DNA from: Sinohyriopsis cumingii
Lineage: Eukaryota; Mollusca; Bivalvia; Unionida; Unionidae
DNA: 64,000 nt
Assembly: GCA_028554795.2 (NCBI GenBank)
Contig: CM068828.1
Span: 19,181,936-19,245,935 of the forward strand
Direction: 5' to 3'
The notes below the pieces were generated by a model. It had not been told where the DNA came from. It searched no databases and worked only from the letters and a program-made list of their open reading frames with translations. A program made the translations under genes and the position numbers. The first letter of the stretch is position 1. Every line of letters starts with the position of its first letter. Shown here piece by piece: positions 15,755-41,098 of this stretch.

Positions 15755-15770
15755 GCCCCTTTTCAGGGCC
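15755..15770 (+). terminator. Histone-type 3'-end signal after the glutamine-rich gene
   Basis: GCCCCT-TTTC-AGGGCC: six-base stem with one mismatch and a TTTC loop. CCAAA precedes and ACCCA follows, both as in animal histone mRNAs, and GAAAAGAAA at 15784-15792 resembles the histone downstream element at the expected distance. Confidence 0.72.
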
Positions 15771-15792
15771 ACCCACGTCTCTCGAAAAGAAA

Positions 15793-16006
15793 TACAATTT
15801 TAATGGCCAATAACTCAAAAAAAATCCCATTTTACCCCTATAGTACGTGTATATGAGTGCGTGAGTGTACGTTCTTATTTTAAAATCAAAACTCAAAGAC
15901 ACTTACCTTATATAATTAATGTATTCTTTTATCCATAGTTACAATTCAATTCACAATTCACAACAGAGCACTTTAAAAAGTTCATAAACTTATTCTGTCT
16001 CATTGT
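15793..16006. other. Non-coding region between convergent genes
   Basis: Lies between the 3' ends of the glutamine-rich gene and the minus-strand zinc-knuckle gene. AT-rich with no ORF; conserved in part in element A. Confidence 0.5.
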
Positions 16007-16447
16007 TTACAGTTTTTTAAATTTCTTCACCCTCACAGGCTTTTCCTCTTCTTCGTCCTCACTTTCTTCCCTTCTTCTTTTCTTCTCCTGTTTCTTTTTC
16101 TTTACCTGGCTGCTTTCTTCGTCTGAAGAATCCCTCTCTTCCTCTGAAGAATCCCTCTTTTCTTCTGACTCCTCTTCTTTCTTTTTTCGGCAATCTGGTG
16201 ACCAATGTCCTTTTTCTTGACAATAATAACAGGTATCTTGACTTTTGTCTTTTCTAGCCCCTTTTTTTCTTTTTTGATGGTCTGGACACTCTGAAGACCA
16301 ATGCCCTTTCTTCTGACAGATATAGCAAATATCTTGACTTTTATCTCGAAAGGAAGGAGAGTAGTCCATCGGCTGGTCTGAAGAGAATTTTCTAATGACC
16401 CCTCGCAAAGCTCTGATGAAACGTTCTATCTGGGTAGTCTCTTCCAT
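16007..16447 (-). CDS. Double CCHC zinc-knuckle protein (element B)
   Basis: From the methionine at 16447 (MEETTQIERFIRAL), chosen because element A starts at the same residue and upstream codons are not conserved. Two zinc knuckles, CYICQKKGHWSSEC and CYYCQEKGHWSPDC, are separated by a basic linker; the C-terminal third is a strongly charged Glu/Ser/Lys tail ending in KKFKK. CCHC knuckles bind single-stranded nucleic acid, as in retroviral nucleocapsid. It is the only minus-strand gene of element B and shares a bidirectional promoter region with PolB. Function in the element is unknown. Confidence 0.8.
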   Translation of the reverse strand: MEETTQIERFIRALRGVIRKFSSDQPMDYSPSFRDKSQDICYICQKKGHWSSECPDHQKRKKGARKDKSQDTCYYCQEKGHWSPDCRKKKEEESEEKRDSSEEERDSSDEESSQVKKKKQEKKRRREESEDEEEEKPVRVKKFKKL

Positions 16448-16498
16448 CGTTGTGCTCGGTTTGAGAGTGAAATGAATAGTGAAAGGACAAGACACACA

Positions 16499-16533
16499 CC
16501 CTTTTACATACGCTGGTCTGCCATGACTATAAA
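16499..16533. promoter_or_regulatory. Bidirectional promoter with two TATA boxes
   Basis: Minus strand TATGTAAAAGGG (16499-16510) lies about 55 bp before the zinc-knuckle ATG; plus strand TATAAA (16528-16533) lies 54 bp before the PolB ATG. Confidence 0.55.
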
Positions 16534-16581
16534 TTAGTTTATGGTGTTTAAACTTGAGTCATTTGACGTTTTGCACTCAAG

Positions 16582-19500
16582 ATGAAACGATCCAATTCAT
16601 TCGAGAAGAAAGAAGAAGAAGAAAGTAAGAGGCAGAAACGTGATCTATCGCCTTGTACCAGAGCTGAAGTCTTGGCACAAATTCATGCCAGTGATTTTGA
16701 AGAGGACATGAGTGAACCAGAATCCAAACCCTCTAAACAAAGTCCGCCACCCTTAGTCAACCCTGAAAAGTACTATTCCATTCGAGAGACGGAAAAGCGC
16801 TCCTCTAGAAAATTTAGAACCACGGCTTACAAATACACAGTGAAGTTTAAAGATTTCAAGGCTGAAGTACCGTTAGAGAAAGCAGAAGGGTTCATCACTG
16901 GGGTTTGGGATTCTTTGCTCACCGCACTCAAGCGACAATGTCAGCCCAAAGAAGACGATCGCTTGAGACTTTCCATACAACACGACGGTTTGAAATCCCC
17001 TGTTTGGATCGAGTTTAGCACCCCTGCAGAATTGACCGCTTCCAAAGTCATGGACAAGATTCAACACGTGCAACAATCTAATGATCAGTTTGACATCACT
17101 GATGGAAAAGCCACACTGGACATGACCCACGTCTCTCCTCCTCAAGGGACCGGACAACGCAATAAGGTGTTACTGGTGAACGACCTTCGCAGCACCAAAA
17201 AGAGTCTCGTCCAAATTCACAGTTTTTAAGACCAGATGTGTTTAGTCCGAGCCATCGTGGTGGGACGAACCTATGCCAACAAGAACGACACGACAGAATG
17301 GAAAAGAGCCTGGAAAACTATTCGACAATCGGACCGAGCCAAACAACGAAACGAAGCAGAACTCCTGTTGCCACAAGCCGGCCTGTCCAAAGACACACCC
17401 TGTGGCATTCCTGAAATGCAAAAATTGCAAGATGTCCTAGCTCCACGATACACCTTGAAAGTGCACCCTCAAGAAGTGCGCGGACCTCTGTTGTTTCGAG
17501 GGAAAGACTTTAAGGACGGAAAATACATTCATGTCTATTATCACGATGACCATTTCGATAACATTACCAGTATCACTGCATTCCTGGGATATGGTTATTA
17601 CTGTGAGAAATGTGACCATGGTTATAATAATCGAGAGCAACACAAACATTGCGGATTGAAATGCTCAGATGTTTGGCCTCTCCACCCTGTCTGAGCGAAG
17701 GACCAGTGCCTTGTTCAACTTGTCTGCGCGCGTTTGTCAGCCCTACCTGTTACCAACAACGTTTGAAGACGCAAGGTTCACAGCAGAAATGTGCTTGTCA
17801 ACTGCTGAGATTGTGCCCTACATGTGGACAAGGCCTACGTACCAATAATGCCAAGACACACGTATGTTCAGGAAAGAAAAAATGTCACATTTGTCACCAC
17901 ATCGTGGACTTGGAACACCAATGCTACGTGCAAAAATACCAACCCCCACCAGAGAAAGAGGACGGTCACAAGCAGAAAGGCAATTTCATCTTTTTTGATT
18001 TCGAATGCATGCAAGAGACCGGCATTCACATTCCTAATTTCTGCGTGGCTCATCGAGCGTGCGAGAAGTGCATTCAAGAACCTATCTTCAGTCATTCCCT
18101 CACTGCAGCAAGATTCCCGGAGGGCGTAAAAAAATCTTTCGAGGACCGAACACGTTAGCCGATTTTGCCAAATGGGTCTTAGACCCCATCGACACGACGT
18201 GGAGCCAAGAGGACATCGAACGTTACGGAGATTGTCATCGTCATGCCACAGTGATGGCTCACAATTTCTCCGGATACGATGGACAGTTTCTTTTGAGATA
18301 CTATACGGAACAAGGCACGGAGCGTCCTAAAGTCACTTTGAACGGAGCTAAAATCATTTTCATGCAAGTGGGACAAGTGCAGTTTAAAGATTCGATGAGC
18401 TATTTGGCCATGCCTTTGAGCCGAATGCCTAAAACGTTTGGAATGACACAAATGGCTAAAGGGTACTTTCCACACTTTTTCAATACGGAAGCCAATCAAC
18501 ACGCCGTTCTACCCCATTTACATGAGGCTCACTATTACGACCCCGACAACATGCGTACCGAACAACGAGAAGCTTTCTACGCTTGGTGCCAGGCTCACAC
18601 CTCCGACCCTTTCGACTTTCAGGAAGAAATGCTAAAGTATTGTCGTTCCGACGTGGACATTTTACGGCGTTGCTGTGGAAAATTTCGAGAACTGTTCATG
18701 GAACACGGAGGGGTCGATCCTTTGAAAGAAGCTTGCACCATTGCCAAAGCGTGTTCCTTAGTGTACCGGCAACAATTCATGCCTGAAAACACCGTAGCTG
18801 TCATCAGTCCTCAAACGACCCACTATGTCAAACGTCAATACTGGGTCAAAGCCTTACGCTGGTTACATTACTTGTGCGACAAGGAAGACAAGTGGATTCA
18901 GCATGCACGCAACGGAGGGGGCGAAAAGACCATCGGAACGCATTCGGTCGATGGCTGGGACTTAGAAAACCCCAAGATCGTGTACGAGTTTAACGGTTGC
19001 TTATTTCACGGATGTCCCGTCTGTTACCCTGACCGTGGCACTAAAAATCAGTTTTTACAACGAACCATGGAAGACTTGTACCAGGCCACTTGTCAGCGAC
19101 GCCTACAGTTAGAACAGGAAGGATACCAAGTGGTGGAAATGTGGGAACACGAATACGATCACCGTTTGAAAACCGATCCCGAATTTAAACGCCTCGTGGA
19201 AAGTTACCAGTTCATGGACCCGCTGAACCCGAGGGATAGTTTGTACGGAGGAAGGACCAATGCCACCTGTTTGCTGTACCAAGCCGACGAAGAGAAAGGA
19301 GAAGAAATCAAATACTTGGACGTGTGTTCGCTGTATCCCTACGTGTGCAAATATTGTCACTTTCCTATAGGGCACCCGCAATTGCTGACGGAACACATCG
19401 ACCTGAAAAACATTCGACAATACGAAGGTCTGATCAAGTGTAAAGTTTTGCCGCCCACGGACTTGTACCATCCCGTGTTACTTCACCATTGCCAAGGCAA

Positions 19501-20470
19501 ACTAATGTTTCCTTTGTGTCGTACTTGTGCCGAAACGTGCAACCAAGACCAGCCTTGCCATCACACCCAGGAAGAACGAGCCTTGACGGGGACGTGGGTC
19601 GGCGTGGAATTGTTCAAAGCTCTGGACACGGGATACCAACTGTTAGAAGTGTACGAAATTTGTCACTTTCCCAAGACACAACAATACCACAAGGGTGACC
19701 CCACGCAGAAAGGCATTTTCGCCGACTACGTGGATGCCTTTTTGAAACTGAAGCAAGAAGCCAGCGGCTATCCTTCCTGGTGTCACACTCCCGAAGACCA
19801 AATACAATTCAAAGAGAAATACTATGAACAAGAAGGCATCTCTTTAGACCACATCGAGAAAAACGAAGGCAGGCGATCGTTTGCCAAAGTGATGTTAAAT
19901 TGCTTGTGGGGTAAAATGGCACAACAACCGTGTTTACCCAAGACGGAATATTTGACCGAACCTTCCCGCTACTTCCAGATGATTCACGACAAAACCAAAT
20001 ACATGAAACACGTGGACGTCGTTCGTGAGGATTTGATCTTGGTCAATTACGAAGAAGATCTGGACTTTGTACAAGACGACCCTTTTGGAAATGTCATCAT
20101 TGCGGCTTACGTGACAGCCCATGCTCGCTTAAAATTGTACGAAGCTTTAGAACTGTTAGGGAAACGCGTCCTGTACTTTGACACGGACAGTTGCATTTAC
20201 ATCCATCACCCGAGTCAACAGCACCCTGACATCGAAGGAGACCGTTTAGGAGCCTGGACAGACGAGCATCCCGACGACAAGATTCTAAGTTTCGTCAGTG
20301 GTGGTCCCAAAAATTACGGCTACGAATACCGGGACCCACAAGGAGAAGTGCACACGACGTGCAAAGTGAAAGGACTGACTCTGAATTATCGTACCAGTCG
20401 TGTGGTCAACTTTGGGGTATTGAAAGAAGCCTTGCGTCGGTATTGGTCTGTATATAAAAAGGAACCCTAG
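16582..20470 (+). pseudogene. polB: Protein-primed-type DNA polymerase B of element B, three breaks
   Basis: Motifs in order: Exo I FIFFDFEC (about 17987-18010), Exo II AHNFSGYDGQF (about 18256), Exo III YCRSDVDIL (about 18636), motif A DVCSLYP (19319-19339), motif B KVMLNCLWGK (about 19888), motif C DTDS (20180-20191). Several CxxC pairs precede Exo I. Breaks: an in-frame stop at 17227-17229, where element A has a glutamine codon; a frameshift near 17660-17675; a frameshift near 18115-18125. From about 18130 to the stop at 20468 the frame is intact and holds the whole polymerase domain. The family replicates linear elements from a terminal protein. Introns at the shifts cannot be excluded but no clear splice sites were seen. 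Confidence 0.9.
20451..20462 (+). promoter_or_regulatory. TATA box of the BIR gene
   Basis: TATATAAAAAGG lies inside the last codons of PolB, 65 bp before the next ATG. Confidence 0.6.
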
Positions 20471-20515
20471 GCAAGATCGATAGTTCATTGGGACTACCAA
20501 GACCGAGCGAGCAAG

Positions 20516-21151
20516 ATGAATACCTTCAGAGAAACACAAAACAAGTTTAGAAAGGCACACTTCAAGTGTGGGGCTTCGGAAGTGGAATCCGATTGTGAGC
20601 CTTGCGATGGGTACGATGCTGTACGTTGTGACCTTAGCGATGCCGTAAAGCATCGTGGGAACTTTGTTCTCACTACCCCTATCATGGAAAGTGATGCTGT
20701 GCGTGTCAAACCTGAGGGATGCGAAAGCGATGCCGCTCGTCCTCTTGGACACTTTACTGGGTTTCGTTTTAAAGGGGAATGTTCACCTTCACGTCTACCC
20801 CCCTACGGATGTCATCCAGCTCTGAGCAAACTCCTGTCCATATCACCCAACCCTCATCGAAACGAACCTGTGAAAGACGAATATTCGTTTTCTGTGCGTA
20901 GGTCGGAATACTGCGACTTTGAAAATCGTCTTCAATCGTTCAAAGGAAAATGGCCTAAGTATCTGGGAGGCCCGACCCCCGAAGAATTAGCCAGAGCCGG
21001 ATTTTTCTACTTGGGCGAAGGGGATAAAGTCAGGTGCTTCAGTTACGGTGTGTCACTTCAGCACTGGGAACCGCAAGATTCGGCCTACGTAGAACATGCT
21101 CGATGGTCACCGAATTGTCATTACTTACCCTTAGTGGGAACGAGACATTAA
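20516..21151 (+). CDS. BIR-domain (IAP-like) protein
   Basis: 211 residues, intact. The C-terminal part (about 134-205) has a BIR domain pattern: NRLQSFKGKWP, LARAGFFYLGEGDKVRCF, then HW, EPQD, and EHARWSPNC. Zinc ligands Cys174, His194 and Cys201 are present, but the second cysteine of the usual C-x2-C pair is Tyr177, which should weaken zinc binding. The first 120 residues are Cys-rich and unrecognised. No RING finger is present. Viral BIR proteins (baculoviruses and other large DNA viruses) block apoptosis; that role is inferred and doubtful with the altered ligand. A TATA box sits 65 bp upstream, and the gene opens an accessory block between PolB and the ATPase. Confidence 0.78.
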   Translation: MNTFRETQNKFRKAHFKCGASEVESDCEPCDGYDAVRCDLSDAVKHRGNFVLTTPIMESDAVRVKPEGCESDAARPLGHFTGFRFKGECSPSRLPPYGCHPALSKLLSISPNPHRNEPVKDEYSFSVRRSEYCDFENRLQSFKGKWPKYLGGPTPEELARAGFFYLGEGDKVRCFSYGVSLQHWEPQDSAYVEHARWSPNCHYLPLVGTRH

Positions 21152-21162
21152 AGTAACTTACC

Positions 21163-21555
21163 ATGTCGTTGACGAAGAAGAAACCAGTTTGGCTAGGAGT
21201 CAAATGTTGGACATCACCGAGACCAGTATTTAAACTTCATTTCAAAAACGATATTGAATCATTACCTAAAGAACTGCAAGAGAAGATATACAAGGAAGTT
21301 TGGCAGGGACTTGCCAGAGTGAAATCTCAATGGGTCACTGTAGAACTTTTGTGCCGTGAAATTCACAAGAGGAAAGTGAAAAAAGTCAACCAGTGTGTTA
21401 GATTTCTTTGGGTCAAGTGTGCATTCGTCCTATTGTATTACTCTAGACCGTTTACATCAAAAGAGTTCAGTGACATTCTTGGACGTTACCCTGAATGGCA
21501 GTGGTCAGAAATTACTCACTATGTGGATTACTTTTGCTCTAGGAGAAGATTGTGA
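21163..21555 (+). CDS. Unknown element B accessory protein 1
   Basis: 130 residues starting MSLTKKKPVWLG. Contains SLPKELQEKIYKEV, a leucine/proline start faintly like an F-box helix, then a basic, aromatic helix-rich region. It shares the LPxELxExIY segment with the next gene, suggesting a duplicated family. It lies 11 bp after the BIR gene with no TATA box between, so the two may share an mRNA. No function is recognised. Confidence 0.55.
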   Translation: MSLTKKKPVWLGVKCWTSPRPVFKLHFKNDIESLPKELQEKIYKEVWQGLARVKSQWVTVELLCREIHKRKVKKVNQCVRFLWVKCAFVLLYYSRPFTSKEFSDILGRYPEWQWSEITHYVDYFCSRRRL

Positions 21556-21576
21556 ATTGTACGGACTGACCTATTC

Positions 21577-22065
21577 ATGGATACTTTACAAGAGAACGTT
21601 AGTACTTTGCCTGTGGAGTTGAGAGAAAGGATTTACCGAGAGCTGGTCAAAATACAAGTCAAACGTAAAGAACAATTGCATCCGTTACGTCACCAGATCT
21701 TTAACCACTGGTACCTGAATGGTATAAGAGGACTGATTCGTCAGAAATTGTTTCAGTGGTCAGACCTTGTTGAACACTTGCAGTTTGTGAATGAACTAAA
21801 CGTTCGTAATGTTGGTTACTTCGAGATTCACCTACTGCAACGTATTGAGGAAGACGAGTTAAAGGATTATCAACATATGTTACGTGGAATCTGCTTAGCG
21901 GAAGACGAAACATCTAGACAAACTCTGACGTTTCGGTTACAGTATGTAACATTTAAATTCCCTACTGGAGAAAGATGTCTAGTTAGAAATTACCTTTATT
22001 GCTTCCGAAACAAAGAGACTATAAAATCAGGCTGCCATGCCACGGATTATGTCACATATCATTGA
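21577..22065 (+). CDS. Unknown element B accessory protein 2 (paralogue of protein 1)
   Basis: 162 residues beginning MDTLQENVSTLPVELRERIYREL. The N-terminus matches the LPxELxExIY stretch of the preceding protein; the remainder is helical and basic with a QWSDLVEHL stretch resembling the WSEITHYVDYF region of protein 1. The gene follows by about 21 bp and overlaps the next reading frame. Function unknown; an F-box-like adaptor role is possible but weakly supported. Confidence 0.5.
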   Translation: MDTLQENVSTLPVELRERIYRELVKIQVKRKEQLHPLRHQIFNHWYLNGIRGLIRQKLFQWSDLVEHLQFVNELNVRNVGYFEIHLLQRIEEDELKDYQHMLRGICLAEDETSRQTLTFRLQYVTFKFPTGERCLVRNYLYCFRNKETIKSGCHATDYVTYH

Positions 22066-22261
22066 ACAGATTCCGTGGAAGGAACTCAATGACCATATTC
22101 AAACCGTGGATCATTACCATCGATTATTACAAGAACTGTATCCATTCAATTTGGGTCGACAAGTGGTGTGTGTCTTAGTGACTTGTTTTCTGGGATTTCG
22201 TTTACCAGCCGATTCCTTGTGGACTCTTTACGAAGAGTACTTACCACCTCAATGGCCTTAA
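22037..22261 (+). CDS. Unknown short element B protein 3
   Basis: 74-residue frame starting MPRIMSHIIEQIPWKEL, overlapping the end of the preceding gene by 29 bp. Helical, aromatic-rich, ending YEEYLPPQWP. The start IIEQIPWKELNDHI is faintly like the LPxEL starts of proteins 1 and 2. It may be a separate gene or a shifted continuation of one. Low certainty. Confidence 0.35.
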   Translation: MPRIMSHIIEQIPWKELNDHIQTVDHYHRLLQELYPFNLGRQVVCVLVTCFLGFRLPADSLWTLYEEYLPPQWP

Positions 22262-22446
22262 ATGGTCACGAAAGACTCCTTTTGCTCAAAGCCTTGCGTT
22301 TTCATCTGGATACTTCTCGACCTCAACAGGAAAAAAAGATTCGTCAACTTTTAGCTACCCAAGACGTGTATGACGATGTGTGTGTAGTTTGTGACTTACA
22401 TCCCCACTGGACAGATGTCCGTGCCTGGAAAGAATGGGATTTTTAG
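22252..22446 (+). CDS. Unknown short element B protein 4
   Basis: 64-residue frame from the ATG at 22252, overlapping the previous stop by 10 bp. Contains CVVCDLHPHW, a single C-x2-C. It could be the C-terminal continuation of protein 3 after a frameshift, making one gene of about 135 codons. No family recognised. Confidence 0.3.
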   Translation: MALNGHERLLLLKALRFHLDTSRPQQEKKIRQLLATQDVYDDVCVVCDLHPHWTDVRAWKEWDF

Positions 22447-22756
22447 GCTTGGACCCAAGAAGTGGCTCAGTATGCACGAGAGTTGTTCAAGGAAAAAAGT
22501 TACTTTTCAACCTGTGTTAGTGACGGTGCCAGAAGAACCCGTCACCCAGGACAGGACTGTCGTGGACAGGCCTGAAAGACCCTTTCGGCAGGACACTTGT
22601 GTGACCTTACCCCCTATAGAACTGGTCAGAACTTTACCCAAAACATGTTGTACAGACACTTGTTTTTATTCCACGTTGATGGTTATCATGTGCCTTGTAT
22701 TGTTGTACTTAAGCCTTTGGCTTTTATGTATTTTTGTCTTTCGTATTCATGTTTAA
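22415..22756 (+). CDS. Predicted small membrane protein of element B
   Basis: Frame open from 22391; candidate starts at 22415 or 22472. The C-terminal 25 residues (LMVIMCLVLLYLSLWLLCIF) form a clear transmembrane helix, preceded by a Pro/Thr-rich segment and a Cys pair (TCCTDTC). A C-terminal anchor suggests a tail-anchored membrane protein. A consensus AATAAA lies 8 bp downstream at 22764, so the accessory block ends with ordinary polyadenylation. Function unknown. Confidence 0.5.
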   Translation: MSVPGKNGIFRLGPKKWLSMHESCSRKKVTFQPVLVTVPEEPVTQDRTVVDRPERPFRQDTCVTLPPIELVRTLPKTCCTDTCFYSTLMVIMCLVLLYLSLWLLCIFVFRIHV

Positions 22757-22763
22757 AACATTC

Positions 22764-22769
22764 AATAAA
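22764..22769 (+). terminator. Poly(A) signal AATAAA before the ATPase gene
   Basis: Consensus hexamer just after the membrane-protein stop and 19 bp before the ATPase TATA box. Confidence 0.5.
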
Positions 22770-22787
22770 CGTGTTCTGAAAAAAAAG

Positions 22788-22795
22788 TATATAAA
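22788..22795 (+). promoter_or_regulatory. TATA box of the packaging ATPase gene
   Basis: TATATAAA, 54 bp before the ATG at 22842. Confidence 0.6.
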
Positions 22796-22841
22796 CTCTT
22801 GTCTTGTTTGTTTTCGTGTCACAAGTGACATTCCTAACACT

Positions 22842-23582: not shown

Positions 23583-23585
23583 AAA
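23578..23585 (+). promoter_or_regulatory. TATA box of the H1-like core protein gene
   Basis: TATAAAAA; its first TAA is also the ATPase stop codon. 45 bp to the ATG. Confidence 0.6.
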
Positions 23586-23622
23586 CCTCAGACACTTTTC
23601 GTCTGTCTCACACAACGTCAAC

Positions 23623-24573: not shown

Positions 24574-24579
24574 AAAAGG
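24569..24579 (+). promoter_or_regulatory. TATA box of the pX-like gene, separated from it by a MITE
   Basis: TATAAAAAAGG; its TAA is the stop of the core gene. Without the MITE the distance to the ATG at 25102 would be about 56 bp, as for the other genes. Confidence 0.6.
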
Positions 24580-24623
24580 CCTGTGACCAAGTCGGGGTAT
24601 CAGTGTTTTTTGGTGCTCCTGAA

Positions 24624-25096
24624 GGACACACGGTACTAATTATACGGAAGAACTGTGAACCAGTCTAGAAATGGGTGAAGAAATGATAGAGCATTTACAG
24701 GTTTGGTGGTCCATAATTGGTTAATAATGAAAATTAAAATTTTAGGAAAAATATCTTTTGAGAGCGTGTCCTATATGTAAGTAAAAAAAATATTGACAAA
24801 TTTCTACTCATACAATTTTAGCATTTTTACAGGCTTGACTCAGGAGTACTCAATACTGAAAGTAGCACCTGATTCATTTGGTGCAGAATCAATAACACGT
24901 GTTTGATGCACATGTATGTAAACAAATTGCCGCGGGTCATATGGTGTTCTCCACACATAAGCTTGCACCAAGGTTAGATGTGCACGAAAAATTATAGGTG
25001 TCATTATCAGCACCCATAAATTTTAAGTTATTGAATTTTGAATATGACAGTGTTTCCATATGTTTACCATTGGAGTGGAATTAGTACCGTGAGTCC
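24624..25096. mobile_element. MITE inserted in the 5' leader of the pX-like gene
   Basis: Ends GGACACACGGTACTAATT and AATTAGTACCGTGAGTCC are inverted copies with two differences; the 4-bp word TGAA flanks both sides (24620-24623, 25097-25100), a possible target duplication. A second, diverged copy is at 53766-54239. Non-coding, about 473 bp. Confidence 0.8.
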
Positions 25097-25101
25097 TGAA
25101 G

Positions 25102-31500: not shown

Positions 31501-31524
31501 TTAACTGGTCTTTGATTTACTTTC

Positions 31525-34500
31525 TTAGATTTTTTTGAGTAGATTGGATTCGTGTATAAAACTTATGATATTTTTGAATGTTAGATTAATATTGGGGTTT
31601 GTGTTCATCAAGAATTCTGGGTATGTTGTAGGGGATCCAATTTTATGCTGTTTAACTTTAAACTTAGCCCTTTCTTTTTCAAGTGTATGGCAGTTGTTAA
31701 AAATATGCTCTATGTCTTCTGGGACCCTGCAGTGGTAGCAGTTAGGGTTATGTGGTTGTGGTCCTATGTACTGTCCGAAGCTGTTAGCCAGCTTGGTTTT
31801 GCCCGTGAGTATTCTATTTATGAATTTTTGTTCACTGCCTTTTGTTTTGGGCGGTTTCCTATTTCTACATACTTCTTTAATGATGGTTTTTAGTTTCCTG
31901 CCTTGAGTGCTTGTGTTCCATAATTCCTGCCATTTATTATCAATGAGGGTTTTAGATATGCTATTGAGTTCGCATATGCTATAATCTAGGTTGATGTGAG
32001 TGGTTTCGTTTAGTTTTTGTTTAGCTGTTATATCTGCCATATCGTTACCTGGTATGTTAATATGGGATGGTATCCACATAAATTCTACTTGTAAGTTATT
32101 ATTGTTCAGTATTTTTAACAATAAATTGGTTTGCCTAAGATAGTTTTCTCTTGATTTGGTGTTGTTATTAAGTATTGAGTTTATGACGCTTAGCGAGTCA
32201 CTTATTATTACCGCTTGGGGTATTTTGTTCTCTTTGATCCATTTGAGTGCTTCAAGTATGGCCCAGAATTCAGCTGTGTATATAGAGCAGAGGTTAGGTA
32301 GTCTTCGTCCTACTTTAATGTTAAGTTCGGGGATTACGTAAGCTGCTGCTGTTCTGGGTGGTTCTGTAATTTTGGACCCATCAGTGTAAATCTTAATGTA
32401 GTTGCAATATTTTGAGTTGATTTCTTCTGTACAGATTGTGTTTAGTTTGAGTTCCTGTTCGTTTTTATTGCCATATTTCGTAATGAGGGTGTTAACTGTG
32501 GGGTTGATATTTATCCATGGTTCTTTGTCATAGTGATTTGCAATTTCTGCTTGGAGTTTGTCTATAGGAAGTTGTTCAACTAACTGATGGACTAATTTCC
32601 CTGCTGGTATGTTTTGTGATAATTTAGTTCTAAAAGGTATGTTGCATTTATTTATAGCTAGCCGGGTGGGGTGTGTGTCGGGGTGTGTTGTTAGCCTGGC
32701 TGCATATCTGAGGGTGAGTTCTTGTCTTCTAAGGTGGAGCGGCAGTTCTCCAGTTAAGATTTGAAGTTCCACTAGTGATGTGGATGGTAGTGCACCAGTG
32801 CAAATAATTAGGGCCTTTCTTTGTATGCTATCTAGTTTTTTGAGGTTATTTTTGGGTGCCGAGTTGTAAATTTGGCATCCGTAATCTAGTTTAGATCTAA
32901 TTAACGATTTATATAATGCTAGTAAGGTTTCTTGATTGGATCCCCAGGTGGTTCCTTTAAGGGTTGTAAGGAGGTTAAGGTCTTTACTGCACCTTTTGAC
33001 TAGTTCGTTTATGTGGTGTCCCCAGTTTAGCTTGGAGTTATAATGCATTCCTAAAAATCGTGCTACATTTACGAATTTAATTTCTTGATTTTGGATGGTG
33101 AGTTTGGGAAACTGATTTTGTAATTTACGTTTGGTGGTGAATAATACTGCTATGGTTTTTTCATGGGATAATTTGAAACCCCATTTATCAGCCCATTTCC
33201 CTATTTTGTTTAAACTTGTTTGAATATCGCTGATTACTTTGTGGTTGGAGGGGTTTCCTGCTCTCCATAATCCACTAACATCAGCAAATTGTGAGAGTTC
33301 AATTAGTTTTGATGTTAAGTTGGTGTCCAAGTCATTAATCATGATGTTGAAAAGGGTTGGGCTGAGTACGCTCCCTTGTGGTGTACCGTTTTCAAGTGTG
33401 TGTGGTTCAGAGTAGGTGTCGCCGACTCTGGTTGATATTTTACGGTCAGCGAGGAAGTTTTCAATGAATTTAAACATTCGACCTGTGATGGCGTAGTGGT
33501 TGAGTTTGGCTAATAAGCCTTTGGTCCATACAAGGTCGAATGCCTTTTCGAGGTCAATAAATACTGCAATTAAATTCCTATCAGCTTTGCGTTTGGAGTT
33601 GAACGCAAATTTAATTGCGGTTTCTAATCGTATTAGTTGATCCGTGGTGGATCTTTTGTTTCTAAATCCGCATTGATTATCGGAGATTAAATTATTGCTT
33701 TCTAGGTGGTGTTTGAGTCGGTTGGTGACTATGGTTTCCATGATCTTACAAATGTTGTTTGTTAGGGAAATGGGTCTGTAGGAGCTAATATCGTTAGGGT
33801 CTTTTCCTTGCTTGGGTATTGGAATTACTATTGCGTGTTTCCATTTATCGGGTAGTTTGCCTGAGGTCCATATTTGGTTTAGTAATTTAATAATTGTTTG
33901 TTTAATGTTATTTGGGATATTTTTGTATATTGTGTATCCTATTTGATCTTCCCCTGGGCTAGTTTCGTTTTTGGTTTTCAATGCTAGGTCCCATTCGTAA
34001 GTTGTAATGTTTTTATTTAGGTTCGAGACTTTGGGACCGAGGTCTTTAAAGAGATTACTATGGGTTCTTTCTACTTTGTCCCTATGTAATTGAAATGCTG
34101 GGGTGTGGTTGGTGTTGCTACTCATATCTGAGAAATGCTGAGCTAGTCGGTCAGCCTTTTCTTTATTAGTAATGGCTCCAGCTATTTTTGGAGTGGTGTT
34201 AGTTGTCTTTCCTCTAATTGATCTAATCTTATCCCAGACTTGTTTGGTACTAGTTGTGATATTGATATTCGTGCAGTAATTATGCCAAGTTGATTCCTTT
34301 GCCTGTTTAATTATGTTTTTAAGGTTTTTCTCCTTTTGTTTATATATAGTGAAATCAATAGAGTTTTTAGTGCGTTTGAATTTATTGAGGGCTTTTTTCT
34401 TATCAGTGATGGCTTGTTTGCATTCATCATTCCACCATGGGACTCCTTGTTTATGTGGGTTACCACTAGTTTTGGGTATGTTAGTGGTGGCTGCCTTTAG

Positions 34501-35394
34501 TATGGTATCAATCAGGTCTTCGTAATATTTATTAATATTATCATTTTCTATGTTTTTGGTGTCTATTTTGCTTAGTGTTTCATTAAATGAGGTCCAATCT
34601 GCTTTTGAATATATCCATCTAGGGGTTCTTTTTAGCGAGCTGTATTGGACCGTCATATGCAGGGTGACTATTACTGGAAAGTGGTCACTGCCCAAGGGGT
34701 CAGTTTGATCCACTCTCCAGTCCGCCACCTGGGTTATTGATGGCGAGCAAATGGTGAGGTCGATGGCGGACATGAGACCGTTTTCTGGGTTAAGGCGTGT
34801 TTTTGTACCGTCATTTAAAATGGCTAAGTTAGATTCTGCGGTCCATTCTTCAATCAATTTGCCTCTTTTGTCCGTCACACCGCCCCCCCCCCCCCATAGC
34901 TCGTTATGGGCATTGAAATCTCCACAGACGACGATCTGATTTACTCGTTTGTGATCATTTATTTGTTTGTAAGTAATTAAGTTAGCTATGCCTGATGTTC
35001 CCCCTGGGTCATAAATATTGAATATTTGTATTTGACCCTTGCCTGTATGAATTATGAGGGACTGAATTTCGAATGCTTCGTTGCTACCTGGGGTTGGTGT
35101 TATGGTTATTGTTGTTACATTCGGGATGTTATCTGCTATATAGATGGCTAAACCCCCACCTCCTTGTCCCGTGGTTCGATTTTTGAAGTGACCTGGGGCA
35201 TATCCTGGGAGTTTGGGTATTTGTTTGGTTCTACTTGTTATTTTTGTTTCTTGAATGCATATAATATCTGGTTTGTGTTCTAAGCTTTGTAATTTGGCTT
35301 TGAGTTCACTGATATTACTTATTAAGCCTCTAGCATTCCATTGCCATATTATAATGTTCCGATTTGTTGTATAATCCATTATTGGGGTGGTCAT
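31525..35394 (-). CDS. LINE ORF2: endonuclease, reverse transcriptase, RNase H, zinc motif
   Basis: 1289 residues, uninterrupted. N-terminal APE endonuclease (QWNARGL, IQETKI, VVCGDFNAHN, LGSDHFPV), central reverse transcriptase (VFIDLEKAFDLVW, GTPQGSVLSPTLFNIMINDL), C-terminal RNase H (IYTDGSK, AEFWAILEAL, ISDSLSVI, PSHINIPGNDMAD) and a final CYHCRVPEDIEHIFNNC finger. The RT active site reads FADV where the family has FADD: the second catalytic aspartate is valine, so this copy is probably inactive despite its open frame. A C-run at 34883 lies within the endonuclease region. Confidence 0.9.
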   Translation of the reverse strand: MTTPIMDYTTNRNIIIWQWNARGLISNISELKAKLQSLEHKPDIICIQETKITSRTKQIPKLPGYAPGHFKNRTTGQGGGGLAIYIADNIPNVTTITITPTPGSNEAFEIQSLIIHTGKGQIQIFNIYDPGGTSGIANLITYKQINDHKRVNQIVVCGDFNAHNELWGGGGGVTDKRGKLIEEWTAESNLAILNDGTKTRLNPENGLMSAIDLTICSPSITQVADWRVDQTDPLGSDHFPVIVTLHMTVQYSSLKRTPRWIYSKADWTSFNETLSKIDTKNIENDNINKYYEDLIDTILKAATTNIPKTSGNPHKQGVPWWNDECKQAITDKKKALNKFKRTKNSIDFTIYKQKEKNLKNIIKQAKESTWHNYCTNINITTSTKQVWDKIRSIRGKTTNTTPKIAGAITNKEKADRLAQHFSDMSSNTNHTPAFQLHRDKVERTHSNLFKDLGPKVSNLNKNITTYEWDLALKTKNETSPGEDQIGYTIYKNIPNNIKQTIIKLLNQIWTSGKLPDKWKHAIVIPIPKQGKDPNDISSYRPISLTNNICKIMETIVTNRLKHHLESNNLISDNQCGFRNKRSTTDQLIRLETAIKFAFNSKRKADRNLIAVFIDLEKAFDLVWTKGLLAKLNHYAITGRMFKFIENFLADRKISTRVGDTYSEPHTLENGTPQGSVLSPTLFNIMINDLDTNLTSKLIELSQFADVSGLWRAGNPSNHKVISDIQTSLNKIGKWADKWGFKLSHEKTIAVLFTTKRKLQNQFPKLTIQNQEIKFVNVARFLGMHYNSKLNWGHHINELVKRCSKDLNLLTTLKGTTWGSNQETLLALYKSLIRSKLDYGCQIYNSAPKNNLKKLDSIQRKALIICTGALPSTSLVELQILTGELPLHLRRQELTLRYAARLTTHPDTHPTRLAINKCNIPFRTKLSQNIPAGKLVHQLVEQLPIDKLQAEIANHYDKEPWININPTVNTLITKYGNKNEQELKLNTICTEEINSKYCNYIKIYTDGSKITEPPRTAAAYVIPELNIKVGRRLPNLCSIYTAEFWAILEALKWIKENKIPQAVIISDSLSVINSILNNNTKSRENYLRQTNLLLKILNNNNLQVEFMWIPSHINIPGNDMADITAKQKLNETTHINLDYSICELNSISKTLIDNKWQELWNTSTQGRKLKTIIKEVCRNRKPPKTKGSEQKFINRILTGKTKLANSFGQYIGPQPHNPNCYHCRVPEDIEHIFNNCHTLEKERAKFKVKQHKIGSPTTYPEFLMNTNPNINLTFKNIISFIHESNLLKKI

Positions 35395-35418
35395 TTATTG
35401 ATTGTTTTGTGTTGAGGG

Positions 35419-37486
35419 TTATGATGTTAACTTCAAATTTGAATCGATTTTGCTTATTATGCTTATTATCTGTGTTATTTTATCCACGATGTAGTGGTGG
35501 TTGTTGATAAGTTCGGCTTTGATCTCTGTTAGTAACTTTTCTATTGTCGGGTTTGACAGTGATTTGTTTTTGGTGTTAGTGTTATCTGATTCTTCGGGGT
35601 GGAGTTGTGAGTCTTTGTGGGATTTGATTAAGAATGTATCTTGTTTATTTAATCTTGTTTGATCTTGTTTGACCTTGTTTGACCTTGGTAGGTTGGGTGT
35701 TTGGGCTGTGGTTGCTTCAGTTGCTGGTTTGTTTGGGGTCATGATGTGGTAATTTTTATTACTGGGGGTTAGTTTTTTCGACGCATGATACGGGATTTGC
35801 TTGTTGTTCATGATATCTATGGTTTGATATTCCTTGATAGTGTTGGGGCATTCGTGGGATTTAGGTAGGTGGGGGCCCCTGCAGTTGGTACATTTGGGTG
35901 TGGTTCTACGACATACACCTTTGTGGTTTCCCCCGCATTTGTAGCATAGTTGGGTATATCGACATCTGTTAGAGAAATGTCCCAGTGTTGGCAGTTGCTG
36001 CAGAACCTGGGTTTGTTTATGTATGTCTCAAGGCGGTGGCGTGCCCCAGAGTGATCTAGTCTTATCATGGTTGAGAGTGGAGAATTTGATTCTAGTATCG
36101 CTGGTTTCCTGTCCTAAATGATTTTTGAGTTTATACGCCCTATTTATGGGGGTACCACTGTCTTTGAGTTTGGCAGTGAGGATTTCATTGTTTATCCCTT
36201 TATTTTGTCCTGTGAGTTTTAGAACTGCTTTAAATGTGGGGGTGTTCGTGCGGGAGTATGTGGCTAAGTCATTTGTTCGTGTGTTATTGTTTATTGCCAT
36301 GAGGGTCTGGTTGCTATTGTGTGTTTTGGTTATTATGTTCTTTGTCCCTATTTGTTTGTGTCTTTCGACGTTAACCCTAATGTTGTTAATAATTTCAATT
36401 TCTAGGAATTTGGCCATTTGACTGCGAGTGCTGCAGTGTACTATTATGTATCTTGTGTTTGGCCTAAATATTTTGAATTGTCCTTGATGAACCCTAAGGA
36501 GGGCCTGTGTGAGACTGTTAACAGTTAAGTTTATCAGTTTATTGGGGTTGCTACTGATATAAAGTGTTTGTTCTATGGGGTGGTATGAAAATTTGGCCTG
36601 TTTCTTTGGTTCTTTGGGGGGTGTGAGTTTGAATTATTTTGGGGGGCAGGTTTGTTCTTGGTAAACATGGGTCCCTTCCCTTTACCCTTGCCATCCCACA
36701 CGTTAGGTTTTGATTTAGTGGTTGGGTTAGCTTGTGTTTTGTTTCGGCTGCTGAGTAATTGTTCTTCAGTTAAGGGTTTTGATGGTCCAGGGGTCTGACT
36801 GTTAGGTTTTAATTTAGTGGTTGGGTTAGCTTGTGTTTTGTTTCGGCTGCTGAGTAATTGTTCTTCAGTTAAGGGTTTTGATGGTCCAGGGGTCTGACTG
36901 TTATGATATTTCGGTTTGTTGTTACTGATATGAATGGGTGGAGTTATCGTTACAATGGGCGCCATTTTGGGTGTAGTTTTTCCTTTGTTACATGAGTTGG
37001 GCCCTATTTTCGGTGGGTTTCTTATTATCATGGCTATATGTTTTTTTCCGGGGATTGTGCAATGACCATGTATTTGGGGGTGGGTGGCTGGTCTTGTTTT
37101 TGGAGTGGCGATATTGGTGTTTCTATAGGTATTGTATCATCCAGGTCCTTGTTTGCCGATGGATCTAGTAAGTTTTTGAAACTTACAGTTGAGTTGATAC
37201 TTAAGTCGGCTGCTGATATTTGAATTAGTTCATTTCTCTCAGGGGTGGTTAGATGCGGTGTTGTTAAATCATTCCTTTCAGGAGTGGATGAGAAGTTGAG
37301 TTTCTTCTCGCAAAGTTCAAGGTGCTTGGAGTTTGCACTGAGATCCAATTTCCCCGTGATTATTTGTGGGTTTGGTGTCATAGGGGTGGGAGGTTTATGT
37401 GATTTAATTTCCTTTTCAAGCCTATTGTTTCTCAGAATTTGTTTTCTAGTGTTAAAGTTAAGTTTGTTTGTGATTGATTGAGACAT
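35419..37486 (-). pseudogene. LINE ORF1 (gag-like, CCHC zinc knuckles), frameshifted
   Basis: Four overlapping open segments form one degraded ORF1: an N-terminal low-complexity Pro/Thr region, a 33-residue tandem repeat around QTPGPSKPLTEEQLLSSRNK (two copies, about 36710-36900), a folded domain of the gag-like type (36417-36028), and zinc knuckles near 35860-36010 that read across a one-base shift (CSNCQHW, then CYKCGG, CTNCRGPH in the next frame). ORF1 proteins of this kind coat LINE RNA. The ORF2 start follows by 24 bp. Confidence 0.75.
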
Positions 37487-38002
37487 TCCTACTTTGGTTT
37501 TGAATAAGGTTTAGGTTACTTATTGTTGTTAATAGTGGTTGTGGTTATGAAGAAACAATGAGAGATGAGATTCTGTTACGCTCCGTGAATCGGAAAATCT
37601 CACAGCGGTTAGCTTGTGCTTGTAATTTGTGAGATTCTGACCAGGCGTGGTATCAGTGTGTTTCCTAGTGCCTGTTTTCGGGAACAGTGCTAACAGCTAG
37701 AGTTGTTATTATAAGAAAAAGGTAGTGGTTAGTTGTGTAATTTGTCGAATTTATTCTCTATGATTGAAAATCACACAATGATATTTGGTGCTTGTATCAT
37801 GTGTGGGTTCAATCCAGTCGGTTCTAGTATGTTTCTTAGAGACTGTTTAAGAGAATAGGCGGCAAATTGAGTAGATACGGAATTTAGTACAAGTAAGGTA
37901 AAATATATTATAGTGAGATGTAAACAGCACAGAGTTTTAATTGCCCGCAGGCTTAGTAATTTTCCTACCTTGTACTAAAGTACTTAGCTTTTATACGAGG
38001 TA
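37487..38002 (-). other. LINE 5' untranslated leader
   Basis: Non-coding. A pair of inverted words TTTAGTACAAG and CTTGTACTAAAG (about 37886 and 37970) could form a stem of about 15 bp. Internal promoter likely by analogy with other LINEs, but not demonstrable. Confidence 0.45.
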
Positions 38003-38011
38003 TTGTTTGGT
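38003..38011. other. LINE target-site duplication TTGTTTGGT, right copy
   Basis: Exact repeat of 30463-30471; element B sequence resumes after it. Confidence 0.85.
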
Positions 38012-38104
38012 CATGATTTAGGTAAGATCAATTTTGTTTTAGGGGGATGTTTTCCATCACGTCCGCGCTTTCAGTATAAATTGAAACTCGCTGGGCAGTC
38101 TAGC
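38012..38104 (+). promoter_or_regulatory. Promoter module of terminal gene T2, wedged between two LINE copies
   Basis: Element B sequence with ATGATTTAGGTAAGATCAAT, GGGGGATGTTTTCC, ATCACGTCCGCGC and TATAAA (38075-38080), nearly identical to the T3 module at 40225-40295. The last eight bases AGTCTAGC are the left target duplication of the truncated LINE. Confidence 0.7.
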
Positions 38105-38783
38105 AACAAAAATTCATAAATAGAATACTCACGGGCAAAACCAAGCTGGCTAACAGCTTCGGACAGTACATAGGACCACAACCACATAACCCTAACTGCT
38201 ACCACTGCAGGGTCCCAGAAGACATAGAGCATATTTTTAACAACTGCCATACACTTGAAAAAGAAAGGGCTAAGTTTAAAGTTAAACAGCATAAAATTGG
38301 ATCCCCTACAACATACCCAGAATTCTTGATGAACACAAACCCCAATAGTAATCTAACATTCAAAAATATCATAAGTTTTATACACGAATCCAATCTACTC
38401 AAAAAAATCTAAGAAAGTAAATCAAAGACCAGTTAAAAATATAACAAATCACTGTTTGGGAATTATGACGGCCGGCTCGGTCTCGTGGGTTCACAGACTG
38501 ACACAGCCGTTCATAGCCCGAATAATAAAAACCAGTTAAGGACGAATATTACAAAATCACTGTTTGGGAATTATGACGGCCTGCTAGGTCTCGTAGGTTC
38601 ACAAACTGACACAGCCGTTCATAGCCCGAATAATAAAAACCAATTAAGGCCACAAAAAATTAAAATAGGAAAATAGGAATTAATTAAAACAGGACTCCAT
38701 AATAACATACAAACAACCATAAAACAAGTTTTCATTCCAAACCAATAAGATAGGGAATCAAAATAAATATGGAATTCATGAAT

Positions 38784-38814
<31 letters not shown>

Positions 38815-39457
38815 TCCTAACCGTCTCCTTGTCTCTTAAACAACATCTGGCTGAACTTTCAAATCAAGCTTCCACAGCTATTTCTACTAACATACTCAGC
38901 CAAATCCAGGCAATGTTGGCAGACGACACTGAAGAATTTGAAACTTCCACGCTGGCAGCGTCCCTGGAAGTATCATCATGCAGCGGCGATGAAGCTGATG
39001 AACCTGCACCACCTAAACAGAGTGGAAAAAAGGAAGGCTCTGTCTACCGGAATATGGGACTGGGAAAGGCAATTGATGATATCAAAAAAGCGGGCCACTT
39101 CGTCAATGCCACAAGACCGGGTGTCCTAATGTGACGTCATCGCTGCCGACCAATCGTGGCGGGAGTCACATACTGCTTGGTTTGACACCTGGGGCATTTC
39201 AATCTAACTAAGAAACACGAGTGTGTGGTGTGACTATTCCCACTCATGTCTATTAGCCTTTCAGTCAGGTTGTTAAGGACTAGTTAGTCCTACACCTGAG
39301 TGGCTAAATTAAAAAGTACTCTTTGAGTACATAAAAGCCTGGGGGATGAGGCTCCTTTTCCTTCCCCCAGGAGTAATTAAAAATCACGCAGTGCGTGAAT
39401 AAAAAAGTGGTACATGTTCAAAAGAACGAAAACCACTATAATCCAACTAACGAACGA
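38105..39457 (+). mobile_element. 5'-truncated second copy of the same LINE, opposite orientation
   Basis: Inverted, roughly 98 percent identical copy of the 3' terminal 1.35 kb of the full-length LINE (ends of ORF2, tandem 108-bp repeats, A run at 38785-38811, ORF3, hairpins, GAAC tail). Flanked by AGTCTAGC at 38097-38104 and 39458-39465. It lies in the 5' leader of terminal gene T2, between its TATA box and ATG. Confidence 0.9.
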
Positions 39458-39491
39458 AGTCTAGCTACCCTGTTCATTCGTTGACAAGACA

Positions 39492-39728
39492 ATGAATACC
39501 AGAATTGTGAAACTGCTAGAACTCCAGATGCACCTGGAATATGCCAGGCGCATACTAAATGAACTGGCCGCGGAGGCCATTGTCGAAGAGGCAAGGATGA
39601 AAGAGGAGGAGGAAAGAAGAAAAAAGAAGAGGAGGAAAAGGAGAGAGGAAATTTCAGAATCCCAGAGACAGAAAATAGGGATTCTGAAGCCACTTATCCC
39701 GCCTCTGCACTCCCAAGAAGAAAGGTAA
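39492..39728 (+). CDS. Terminal gene T2: short charged coiled-coil protein
   Basis: 78 residues. Helix LLELQMHLEYARRILNELAAEA followed by a Glu/Lys/Arg-rich helix and a short tail. Similar layout to T1 and T3, so a small paralogous family. Promoter separated from the ATG by the truncated LINE (about 1.36 kb), which should reduce expression. Followed 94 bp downstream by a histone-type stem-loop identical in sequence to that of T1. No known family. Confidence 0.55.
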   Translation: MNTRIVKLLELQMHLEYARRILNELAAEAIVEEARMKEEEERRKKKRRKRREEISESQRQKIGILKPLIPPLHSQEER

Positions 39729-39822
39729 AAGGAGACTGGGGAAGAAGATGTGTGTGTGGTGCCAGGCCTGGAAGGTGCCATCATTAGATAGGTGCATCTG
39801 GAGTTAAAAAAACAAAACAAAC

Positions 39823-39838
39823 AGCCCTTTTCAGGGCT
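39823..39838 (+). terminator. Histone-type 3'-end signal of gene T2
   Basis: AGCCCT-TTTC-AGGGCT, then ACCCAAA, with AGAAAAGAAA at 39851-39860, identical to the T1 signal. Confidence 0.78.
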
Positions 39839-39860
39839 ACCCAAACCTTTAGAAAAGAAA

Positions 39861-40187
39861 TAACAATCGAGTTGCCAATGTGTGTATGTAGAGTAGTGTG
39901 AATATAAACACTGATTCTTTTTTTCCTAGTGTGAGGGTATGTGTTTGTGTTTGTGTTTGTAAGCGCTCACGTACGTTTGTGTGAATAGTAGATTATGGGT
40001 TTGTTTATTGTTTCTTAGCGTATATGGAGAGTATAGTTAGGGTTTTGTAACCGCTCACGTACGATTGTGTGGATAGTAGATTATGGATTTTGTTTTAATG
40101 ATTTGCGTGTGTAAATAGTAGGTTTGGGGTTTGTTTATTGCTGGTTCACGTATGTGGATAGTAGATCATATGAAATGAGAAAAGTAT
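39861..40187. repeat. Intergenic repeats with CTCACGTACG and GATAGTAGATTA words
   Basis: Four or five degenerate units of about 50-70 bp, each with a CACGTA-type word followed by GTGTGNATAGTAGATTATGG or similar; related copies precede the LINE at 30230-30400. Possibly transcription-factor sites or duplicated leader sequence. No gene. Confidence 0.55.
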
Positions 40188-40295
40188 GGGGATGTTTTCC
40201 TTCACGTCCGCGCGTTGTTTGGTCATGATCTAGGTAAGATCAATTTTATGTTTTTAGGGGGATGTTTTCCATCACGTCCGCGCTTTTCGTATAAG
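40188..40295 (+). promoter_or_regulatory. Double promoter module of terminal gene T3
   Basis: GGGGATGTTTTCC with TCACGTCCGCGCGTTG at 40191-40219, then a second GGGGGATGTTTTCC with TCACGTCCGCGC at 40257-40285 followed by TATAAGAACCC about 45 bp before the ATG. Matches the modules of T1 and T2. Confidence 0.7.
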
Positions 40296-40335
40296 AACCC
40301 ACAGTATTCGTCGTTCAAACCATTCTACAGAGAAG

Positions 40336-40683
40336 ATGGCTTCAAACCACCTCGATAAATTGCAAACATTGCAAGACGTCCTGGACAATTTGGGCATGAT
40401 GGAACAAATGCTAGTGAGACTAAACGAAGATCACTATTCTTATAGTCCCCATCGAGTGAAGATGGAGATTAACAACTTACGAAAAGTAAAGGACTTGATA
40501 AGTGATGTGATGAAAGAAATAAAGGAGGAGAAGGAGGATGAAGAGGAAAGGATAATGATAAGAGAATGGAATGAAAAAATTGAAAAAGAAGAAGAAAATG
40601 AGAAGAGGAAGAAAGAAGAGGAGGAGAAGAAGAAAGAAGAGAAAAAAAGGAAGAAAAGAAAGAAAAGAAGAGAAAGAGTGTAG
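40336..40683 (+). CDS. Terminal gene T3: charged coiled-coil protein
   Basis: 115 residues, intact. MASNHLDKLQTLQDVLDNLGMMEQML helix, NNLRKVKDLISDVMKEIKEE, then a very acidic/basic helix ending in a Lys/Arg block (KKRKKRKKRRERV). Paralogous in layout to T1. Perhaps a nuclear or nucleic-acid-associated factor; function unknown. The gene ends 60 bp before the stem-loop that forms the inner edge of the right terminal repeat. Confidence 0.6.
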   Translation: MASNHLDKLQTLQDVLDNLGMMEQMLVRLNEDHYSYSPHRVKMEINNLRKVKDLISDVMKEIKEEKEDEEERIMIREWNEKIEKEEENEKRKKEEEEKKKEEKKRKKRKKRRERV

Positions 40684-40733
40684 GAGAGAAAATAAGAAGT
40701 TGGTGGAGAAATAGAAGAAATTAGAAGCAGAAG

Positions 40734-41098
40734 AAACCCAAAGGCCCTTTTCAGGGCCACTCATAGGTCTCGAAAAGAGAATGACTTTCCATTGCCTACC
40801 CCATTTTTTTATTTTTTATTTTTTATTTTTAAAAAAAAAATCCCATGTTAAATTTCCCTTGACGCTATACAGTCCCACACTGTTTAAATTCCTTTGACGC
40901 TATACAGTCCCATATTCCCATGTTCAATTCCTCTTGAGGCTCAACAGTCCCACGATTTTTCGTCCATGTTAAATTTCCCTTGAGGCTAAACAATCCCACG
41001 ATTTTTCTCCATGTTAAATTTCCATTGAGGCTAAACCGTCCCGGGGGGTGTCTGTAATGCTAATTCCCATTGAGGCTGAATCGTCCCCTTTCACTACT
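40734..41098. repeat. Element B right terminal inverted repeat (365 bp)
   Basis: Inverted copy of the left repeat with one extra sub-repeat of about 50 bp (GCCTCAA or GAGGCTAAAC type units with ATTTAACATGG). Ends CCCCTTTCACTACT. Confidence 0.92.
40743..40758 (+). terminator. Canonical histone-type 3' stem-loop of gene T3, in the right terminal repeat
   Basis: GGCCCT-TTTC-AGGGCC, perfect stem; CCCAAA immediately before, ACTCA after, CGAAAAGAGAA 12 nt downstream. This is the consensus form of animal histone mRNA 3' ends. Confidence 0.82.

Follow-up and report, generated by a model that had tools for sequence, protein, structure and literature searches.

Why should the outermost genes of a virus-like element end in an RNA signal that animals are thought to reserve for histone genes? 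This question is raised by a stretch of 64,000 nucleotides (nt) from the bivalve Sinohyriopsis cumingii (assembly GCA_028554795.2, contig CM068828.1, positions 19,181,936 to 19,245,935; hereafter the window), which harbors a Polinton, called element B in the following, with a terminal inverted repeat (TIR) at either end. According to PMC10388802, the histone 3′ end is regarded as exclusive to the replication-dependent histone genes in animals. There, as PMC7026596 and PMC1924863 describe it, SLBP occupies the hairpin, U7 snRNA base-pairs with a purine-rich element further downstream, and CPSF73 cuts between the two, leaving an mRNA without poly(A). In element B, five copies of this type of signal were found, and from their sequence and placement we consider it probable that the outermost Polinton genes end in a histone-type 3′ signal and give rise to U7/SLBP-processed, S-phase-linked transcripts without poly(A).

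The whole window was scanned with cmscan against Rfam 15 up to an E-value of 10, the curated cut-off of RF00032 (Histone3) being 34 bits. RF00032 matched five times (E 5.4e-7 to 0.0054), and all five matches lie inside element B. A 21-nt pattern, RRCCCTTTTCAGGGYYACYCA, allowed up to three mismatches, was found six times in the window, namely at the five copies and at a decayed copy in an older neighboring element (element A), and not once in 100 dinucleotide shuffles. Because two matches reach 36.5 bits within 64 kb, three more stand behind stop codons, and no shuffle produced a match, there is little room for a chance origin of the hairpins.

Four of these hairpins had already been reported in a first-pass annotation, three of them as perfect, and all four are present. 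Those at 30117 and 39823 read AGCCCT-TTTC-AGGGCT, the one at 40743 reads GGCCCT-TTTC-AGGGCC, and the one at 15755, GCCCCT-TTTC-AGGGCC, carries a single C.C mismatch at pair 2. At pair 1, some copies have G-C; those of G30 and G39 have A-U, both sides of the pair being altered. A stem of 6 bp carrying G at its second pair, a pyrimidine-rich 5′ arm, and a U-rich tetraloop are common to four of the five copies and to the hairpin of L004, a related locus on another contig that is described below. For these same four copies, i.e., all except that of T1, and for L004, the hairpin fold is predicted at −9 to −15.2 kcal/mol.

The flanks follow the histone pattern as well. In all five copies, the hairpin is preceded by A-rich sequence and followed by ACYCA; AAAAGAR stands 14 nt past the stem, the purine element reading AAAAGAAA or AAAAGAGA in each of them. 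A MAFFT alignment of the five copies with L004 gave a common A-rich lead, hairpin, ACYC, and an AAAAGAR purine run 12–14 nt past the stem, the run of L004 starting at 12 nt. Its core is AAAGAG in the TIR copies and L004, and AAAGAA behind T1, G30, and G39; PMC7026596 names AAAGAG as the purine core by which the H2a histone downstream element of the mouse pairs with U7. The A-rich lead, the ACCCA-like sequence after the stem, and the AAAAGAA-like sequence 12–14 nt downstream had been described before and can be confirmed, and the claim of a histone-mRNA-type layout is supported by the RF00032 matches together with the A-rich 5′ flank, ACYCA, and the purine element near the Polinton ends.

All five hairpins lie in sense behind a stop codon at the distances given in Table 1, and neither AATAAA nor ATTAAA occurs between stop codon and hairpin in any of the five genes. 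The two TIRs agree in 307 of 315 aligned bases, with 52 additional gap columns. At both ends of the element, the inner TIR edge is located just before the 5′ flank of the hairpin, and reading outward one meets the 3′ end signal and then the tip of the element. The copy in the left TIR, previously taken for a mirror copy, does exist and starts at 14680 on the minus strand, but it is not merely a mirror image, as it stands in sense behind the open reading frame (ORF) at 14938–14705 (−). Since each TIR has its own copy, facing outward and preceded by an ORF, the proposed placement on terminal genes is, if anything, strengthened.

Table 1. Positions of the features in the window (the last three rows refer to the L004 contig); distances are from stop codon to hairpin.
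Feature	Position	Strand	Remarks
Histone-type 3′ end, left TIR	14640..14685	−	Hairpin 14680–14665; purine element AAAAGAGA 14650–14643; RF00032 36.5 bits, over cut-off
Histone-type 3′ end of T1	15750..15794	+	Hairpin 15755–15770; AAAAGAAA 15785–15792; RF00032 25.8 bits, below cut-off
Histone-type 3′ end of G30	30112..30156	+	Hairpin 30117–30132; AAAAGAAA 30147–30154; RF00032 30.6 bits, below cut-off
Histone-type 3′ end of G39	39818..39862	+	Hairpin 39823–39838; AAAAGAAA 39853–39860; RF00032 31.1 bits, below cut-off
Histone-type 3′ end of G40, right TIR	40738..40783	+	Hairpin 40743–40758; AAAAGAGA 40773–40780; RF00032 36.5 bits, over cut-off
Decayed hairpin behind element A T1 homologue	13835..13855	−	Two mismatches to the pattern; aligned with element B T1 3′ region; does not fold as hairpin
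m14705, 77-aa ORF, outward facing	14705..14938	−	24 nt
T1 gene, 189 aa, conserved protein	15158..15727	+	27 nt; 20 homologues
G30, 122 aa	29722..30090	+	26 nt; in-frame ATG at 29722; no Pfam family
G39, 78 aa	39492..39728	+	94 nt; no Pfam family
G40, 115 aa, lysine- and glutamate-rich	40336..40683	+	59 nt; Pfam only below cut-off
Polinton element B	14373..41098		Tips start AGTAGTGAAAGG; 6-bp target duplication TAGGAC; termini and flanks read directly
Left TIR	14373..14689		Inner edge beside histone hairpin and its 5′ flank
Right TIR	40734..41098		Same layout as left TIR
Divergent m14705/T1 promoter region	14939..15157		Motif scan: two CCAAT boxes, TATA motif ~53 nt upstream of either start codon, one TGACGTCA
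Upstream box GATGTTTTCCTTCACGGCCGCCC before G30	29633..29655	+	
Upstream box GATGTTTTCCATCACGTCCGCGC, then AGTATAAAT	38046..38068	+	Read as former promoter of G39
Upstream box GATGTTTTCCATCACGTCCGCGC before G40	40261..40283	+	Another box at 40191
Type B DNA polymerase	18059..20470	+	PF03175, 1.3e-40
BIR (inhibitor of apoptosis) domain protein	20516–21151		PF00653, 2.3e-21
Major capsid protein, F54H12.2-like, 403 aa	26996..28207	+	Shorter than relatives
LINE-bearing stretch	30475..39458		LINE on minus strand, reverse transcriptase ORF 31525–35394; 5′-truncated inverted copy 38105–39458; Pfam RVT_1 and others, inverted arms
L004 Histone3 match	549–504	−	35.8 bits, over cut-off; UAUC loop, then purine run AAAAAAGAGA
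L004 C2H2 zinc-finger ORF	842–573	−	PF00096, 3.5e-11; 28 nt
L004 TATA-binding-protein homologue	1129–1695	+	PF00352, 1.9e-27, two stretches; between zinc-finger gene and integrase, divergent from zinc-finger gene

The signal is found outside its usual company, as none of T1, m14705, G30, G39, and G40 matches a histone family in Pfam (E 0.01). T1 and m14705 matched no Pfam family at all at this threshold (no homologue search was made for m14705), and a weak resemblance of G40 to Drc1-Sld2 was set aside, the score being 19.1 against a cut-off of 28 bits and probably a matter of composition. By eye, T1 appears coiled-coil-like with an acidic, aromatic N-terminal segment. Sixteen of its homologues span 96% or more of T1 and are 58–94% identical to it, and by this measure T1 is a real protein family. 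One homologue, P0250, lacks the usual stop codon, and its extra C-terminus (…QWPISGPPTSLEKRYYVNCQ) matches the in-frame translation of the T1 3′ untranslated region (UTR; …QSPFSGPPTSLEKKYNFNGQ). For this reason, the diverged T1 copy appears to keep the stretch from hairpin to purine element, as read from the protein and not from DNA. Its codon TGG implies GG at hairpin positions 1–2, where the T1 of the window has GC, and the codon at position 6 calls for A, against T in the consensus; the P0250 hairpin may therefore be imperfect.

A further T1 gene belongs to element A, and it is in this gene that element B was inserted; T1-like sequence is located on the left flank of element B and, by eye, also on the right. 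Behind this homologous gene, the decayed hairpin copy that had been described was found (Table 1), although it is not among the RF00032 matches up to E 10. Element A is an older, inverted, and decayed sister split by element B (approximately 7000–14372 and 41099–41860), and retains integrase pieces at 11412–10318 (−), of which none were found in element B.

Outside the window, a capsid-alignment scan of a genome contig collection yielded 65 candidate stretches, of which six were confirmed, all in records of metagenome-assembled genomes (MAGs). Based on their capsid relatives, we take these six contigs to be animal DNA. The L004 contig lies inside a bacterial MAG, its capsid protein and polymerase are 31% and 37% identical to those of element B, and by these proteins it is a distant Polinton. 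The named relatives of its capsid come from oyster, spider, tunicate, sea anemone, scorpion, lizard, and fish (approximately 31–38%), and the nearest are metagenome proteins (42–48%). An integrase (PF00665) adjoins the TATA-binding-protein-like ORF near the zinc-finger gene. The expectation that the Histone3 model would match near stop codons in related Polintons was borne out for L004, with a hairpin over the cut-off just past a stop, but not for the other five loci.

As the needed cis parts are present, processing of the terminal-gene transcripts by the host machinery can be inferred, i.e., the use of SLBP and U7, the lack of poly(A), and S-phase timing. What is observed are histone-type signals in their proper place, sense, and spacing, together with their presence in a distant element. 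Host U7 snRNP and CPSF73, with SLBP bound, would cut the transcripts a few bases past the hairpin, and the products would be short, poly(A)-free mRNAs, stabilized and translated through SLBP. The S-phase timing of histone mRNA is achieved via SLBP control. Histone mRNA processing is coupled to S phase; the terminal genes would accordingly be expressed most strongly while host DNA is being copied, which would suit an element that replicates its DNA in the nucleus. The outward signal in the TIR would cause the last gene at each end to be terminated inside the element and, being part of the TIR, would be kept alike at both ends. Going one step further, we lean slightly towards the view that a terminal gene module, probably for regulatory proteins, is common to Polintons of distant animals, with histone-type mRNA ends made through SLBP and U7, in S phase and without poly(A); these would be the first non-histone and the first virus-like mRNAs known of this kind. 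That the terminal genes encode regulators, as the coiled-coil-like T1 and the L004 zinc finger beside a TATA-binding-protein-like gene might suggest, is a guess.

Several observations weigh against this reading. Three of the five copies remain below the RF00032 cut-off (31.1, 30.6, and 25.8 bits). In the T1 hairpin, C replaces G at pair 2 and another fold is preferred; SLBP Arg181 contacts G7, the guanine of the second hairpin pair, according to PMC10388802, and SLBP-type function of this copy may therefore be impaired. Covariation among the five distinct rows does not stand out, as its score was reached by 53 of 500 shuffles. The Histone3 model gave no match up to E 5 in five of the six related loci; these are weak evidence either way, since their termini were not identified, inverted repeats of at least 40 nt being absent from the six loci except for one AT-rich pair in L002. 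The L004 zinc-finger ORF had no tblastn match in the window and thus shows no homology to the terminal genes, so that it is the signal, and not the gene, that L004 and element B have in common.

The poly(A) signals do not divide the genes as clearly as the first-pass annotation proposed, either. It had placed the internal genes in an AATAAA class, which could not be established: four of the 16 show AATAAA or ATTAAA in the 250 nt past the stop codon, compared to 11% of the 250-nt windows on the plus strand between 16600 and 29500, and the class was set aside as too weak. G30 has AATAAA or ATTAAA 201 nt past its stop codon, hence use of a downstream poly(A) site by this gene is possible, and histone genes of C. 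elegans bear hairpin and poly(A) signal together, as stated in PMC1924863. A truncated copy of a long interspersed nuclear element (LINE) separates G39 from the box at 38046. With the upstream box of G39 lost to the LINE, the integrase not found, and the capsid ORF short, this copy of the element is a fossil, and the feature is most likely functional in the family, and not fully in this copy.

Could the hairpins, then, be functionless relics of a host histone 3′ end that was captured or inherited and spread via tandem and TIR duplication? The surroundings of the G30 and G39 hairpins are 95% identical over 109 nt and the pair in the TIRs amounts to a single sequence, for which reason we count three hairpin lineages in element B (T1, G30/G39, and TIR) and not five independent events; this, and the mismatch in the T1 copy, is what a relic would have in its favor. 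However, hairpin, ACYC, and purine element have been kept in three diverged 3′ UTRs and in L004, pair 1 is altered on both sides in G30 and G39, and each copy stands in sense behind a stop codon, which makes relics an improbable explanation. A plain transcription terminator or RNA-stability hairpin, working without SLBP or U7, would also be a GC-rich 6-bp hairpin just past the stop codon, as this is a generic 3′ element, and five of the hairpins fold with the energies given above. Such a generic hairpin has no need of the TTTC/TATC loop, the ACYC flank, or a purine element at fixed spacing, all of which are features of the histone signal, and we find this explanation very improbable.

A role of the TIR hairpin as DNA, be it as replication origin, in protein priming, or as integrase site, would turn its place behind ORFs into an incidental one. 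Two of the five copies do lie in the TIRs, approximately 290–360 bases from the tips, but the other three are outside, all five are oriented with an ORF, and their flanks match the RNA signal, leaving this idea with hardly any probability. SLBP/U7 processing of terminal-gene transcripts is the reading we prefer.

Wider searches were also carried out. In three bacterial families (83 + 194 + 85 = 362 genomes), none of the 362 had an RF00032 match over the cut-off, the best reaching 29.4 bits; strict filters were applied and two of the three scans list only E ≤ 1e-5, hence their silence is not proof of absence. Weak RF00032 matches, in G001 (24.6 bits) and in the bacterial families (22–29 and 26.5 bits), were treated as chance and not inspected. 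In a viral contig collection, polymerase, capsid, capsid-alignment, polymerase-alignment, and T1-alignment queries returned no confirmed relatives, and two hairpin patterns no matches. At L002:11734–11798, downstream of the Polinton capsid gene, a match resembling the Type-P1 twister ribozyme was observed below the cut-off (28.9 vs 67.2 bits, E 0.043).

Upstream of the terminal genes, the divergent region between m14705 and T1 contains motifs that we take to be CCAAT boxes, TATA motifs, and a cyclic AMP response element (CRE), the latter being TGACGTCA; the region before the L004 zinc-finger ORF also has TGACGTCA and ATTGG. A repeated box of the form GATGTTTTCC(A/T)TCACG(T/G)CCGC(G/C)C occurs at 29633, 38046, 40191, and 40261, and G30, G39, and G40 resemble a tandem array. 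The 400 nt scanned for G30 and G40 contain no TATA(A/T)A motif; at the matching place, G40 has TATAAG and G30 has TTTAAG by eye.

Element B itself can be recognized as a Polinton by its type B polymerase, A32-like ATPase (Pfam), capsid protein, TIRs, and 6-bp target duplication. The capsid has 783 relatives at E ≤ 0.001, and among the best 120 of 783 that were listed, the animal-named ones are bivalves (Mercenaria, 52–53%; oysters, 43–47%). The ORF at 28828–29388 has no Pfam match, resembles capsid-adjoining ORFs in four of the six related loci (L001, L003, L004, L005), and was labeled adenovirus-type protease by eye. For the RVE integrase, there was neither an rve match among the scanned ORFs nor a tblastn match in element B. 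From the tblastn result, we read the ORF at 26203 as integrase-like at its beginning and minor-capsid-like thereafter, and accordingly as the mark of a probable internal deletion. The minus-strand LINE carries reverse transcriptase, endonuclease, and RNase H; LINE sequence fills most of the stretch assigned to it in Table 1, apparently as one LINE and a 5′-truncated inverted copy. By eye, AGTCTAGC stands on either side of the truncated copy. A zinc-knuckle (CCHC) protein is encoded at 16007–16447 (−) near the left end of element B.

Elsewhere in the window, positions 60–4903 are perhaps a third, different element, with a helicase-like ORF, an integrase-like ORF at 2805–3734 (−; PF00665), and an ATPase-like stretch at 4298–4852 that is 26% identical to the Polinton ATPase. 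At 53104–53223, there is a near-perfect 120-nt palindrome with two adjacent 60-nt arms that are 98% complementary and GCGCGC ends.

If the preferred reading is true, it would provide a direct sequence-level link between the expression of a DNA element and the replication cycle of its host. RNA sequencing with poly(A) selection would then miss such transcripts, which is perhaps one reason why these genes go unseen. To our knowledge, histone-type 3′ ends have not been reported in Polintons, and none were found for Polinton/Maverick elements in the open-access literature, as judged from partial listings with the beginnings of abstracts.

Set beside known systems, the signal is like the animal histone mRNA 3′ end (RF00032) in its 6-bp GC hairpin, UUUC loop (UAUC in L004), A-rich sequence before and ACYC after, AAAGAR purine element approximately 14 nt on, short distance to the stop codon, and small ORFs without visible intron. 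Unlike histone genes, the five genes of element B fall into no Pfam histone family and belong to a virus-like element. TIRs starting with AG and a 6-bp target duplication are hallmarks of Polintons. Element B shares these with Polinton/Maverick (adintovirus-like) elements, along with the type B polymerase, A32-like ATPase, and F54H12.2-like capsid, the integrase being present in element A (as pieces) and in L004. A parallel is offered by the Histoid genes of adomaviruses, which, according to PMC11071296, likewise bring together a DNA virus, adintovirus-like capsid proteins, a clam dataset, and a link to histone biology. Histoid is a histone-like protein there, whereas element B carries a histone-like RNA 3′ end signal. 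Thus, a known signal and a known element are found here in a new combination.

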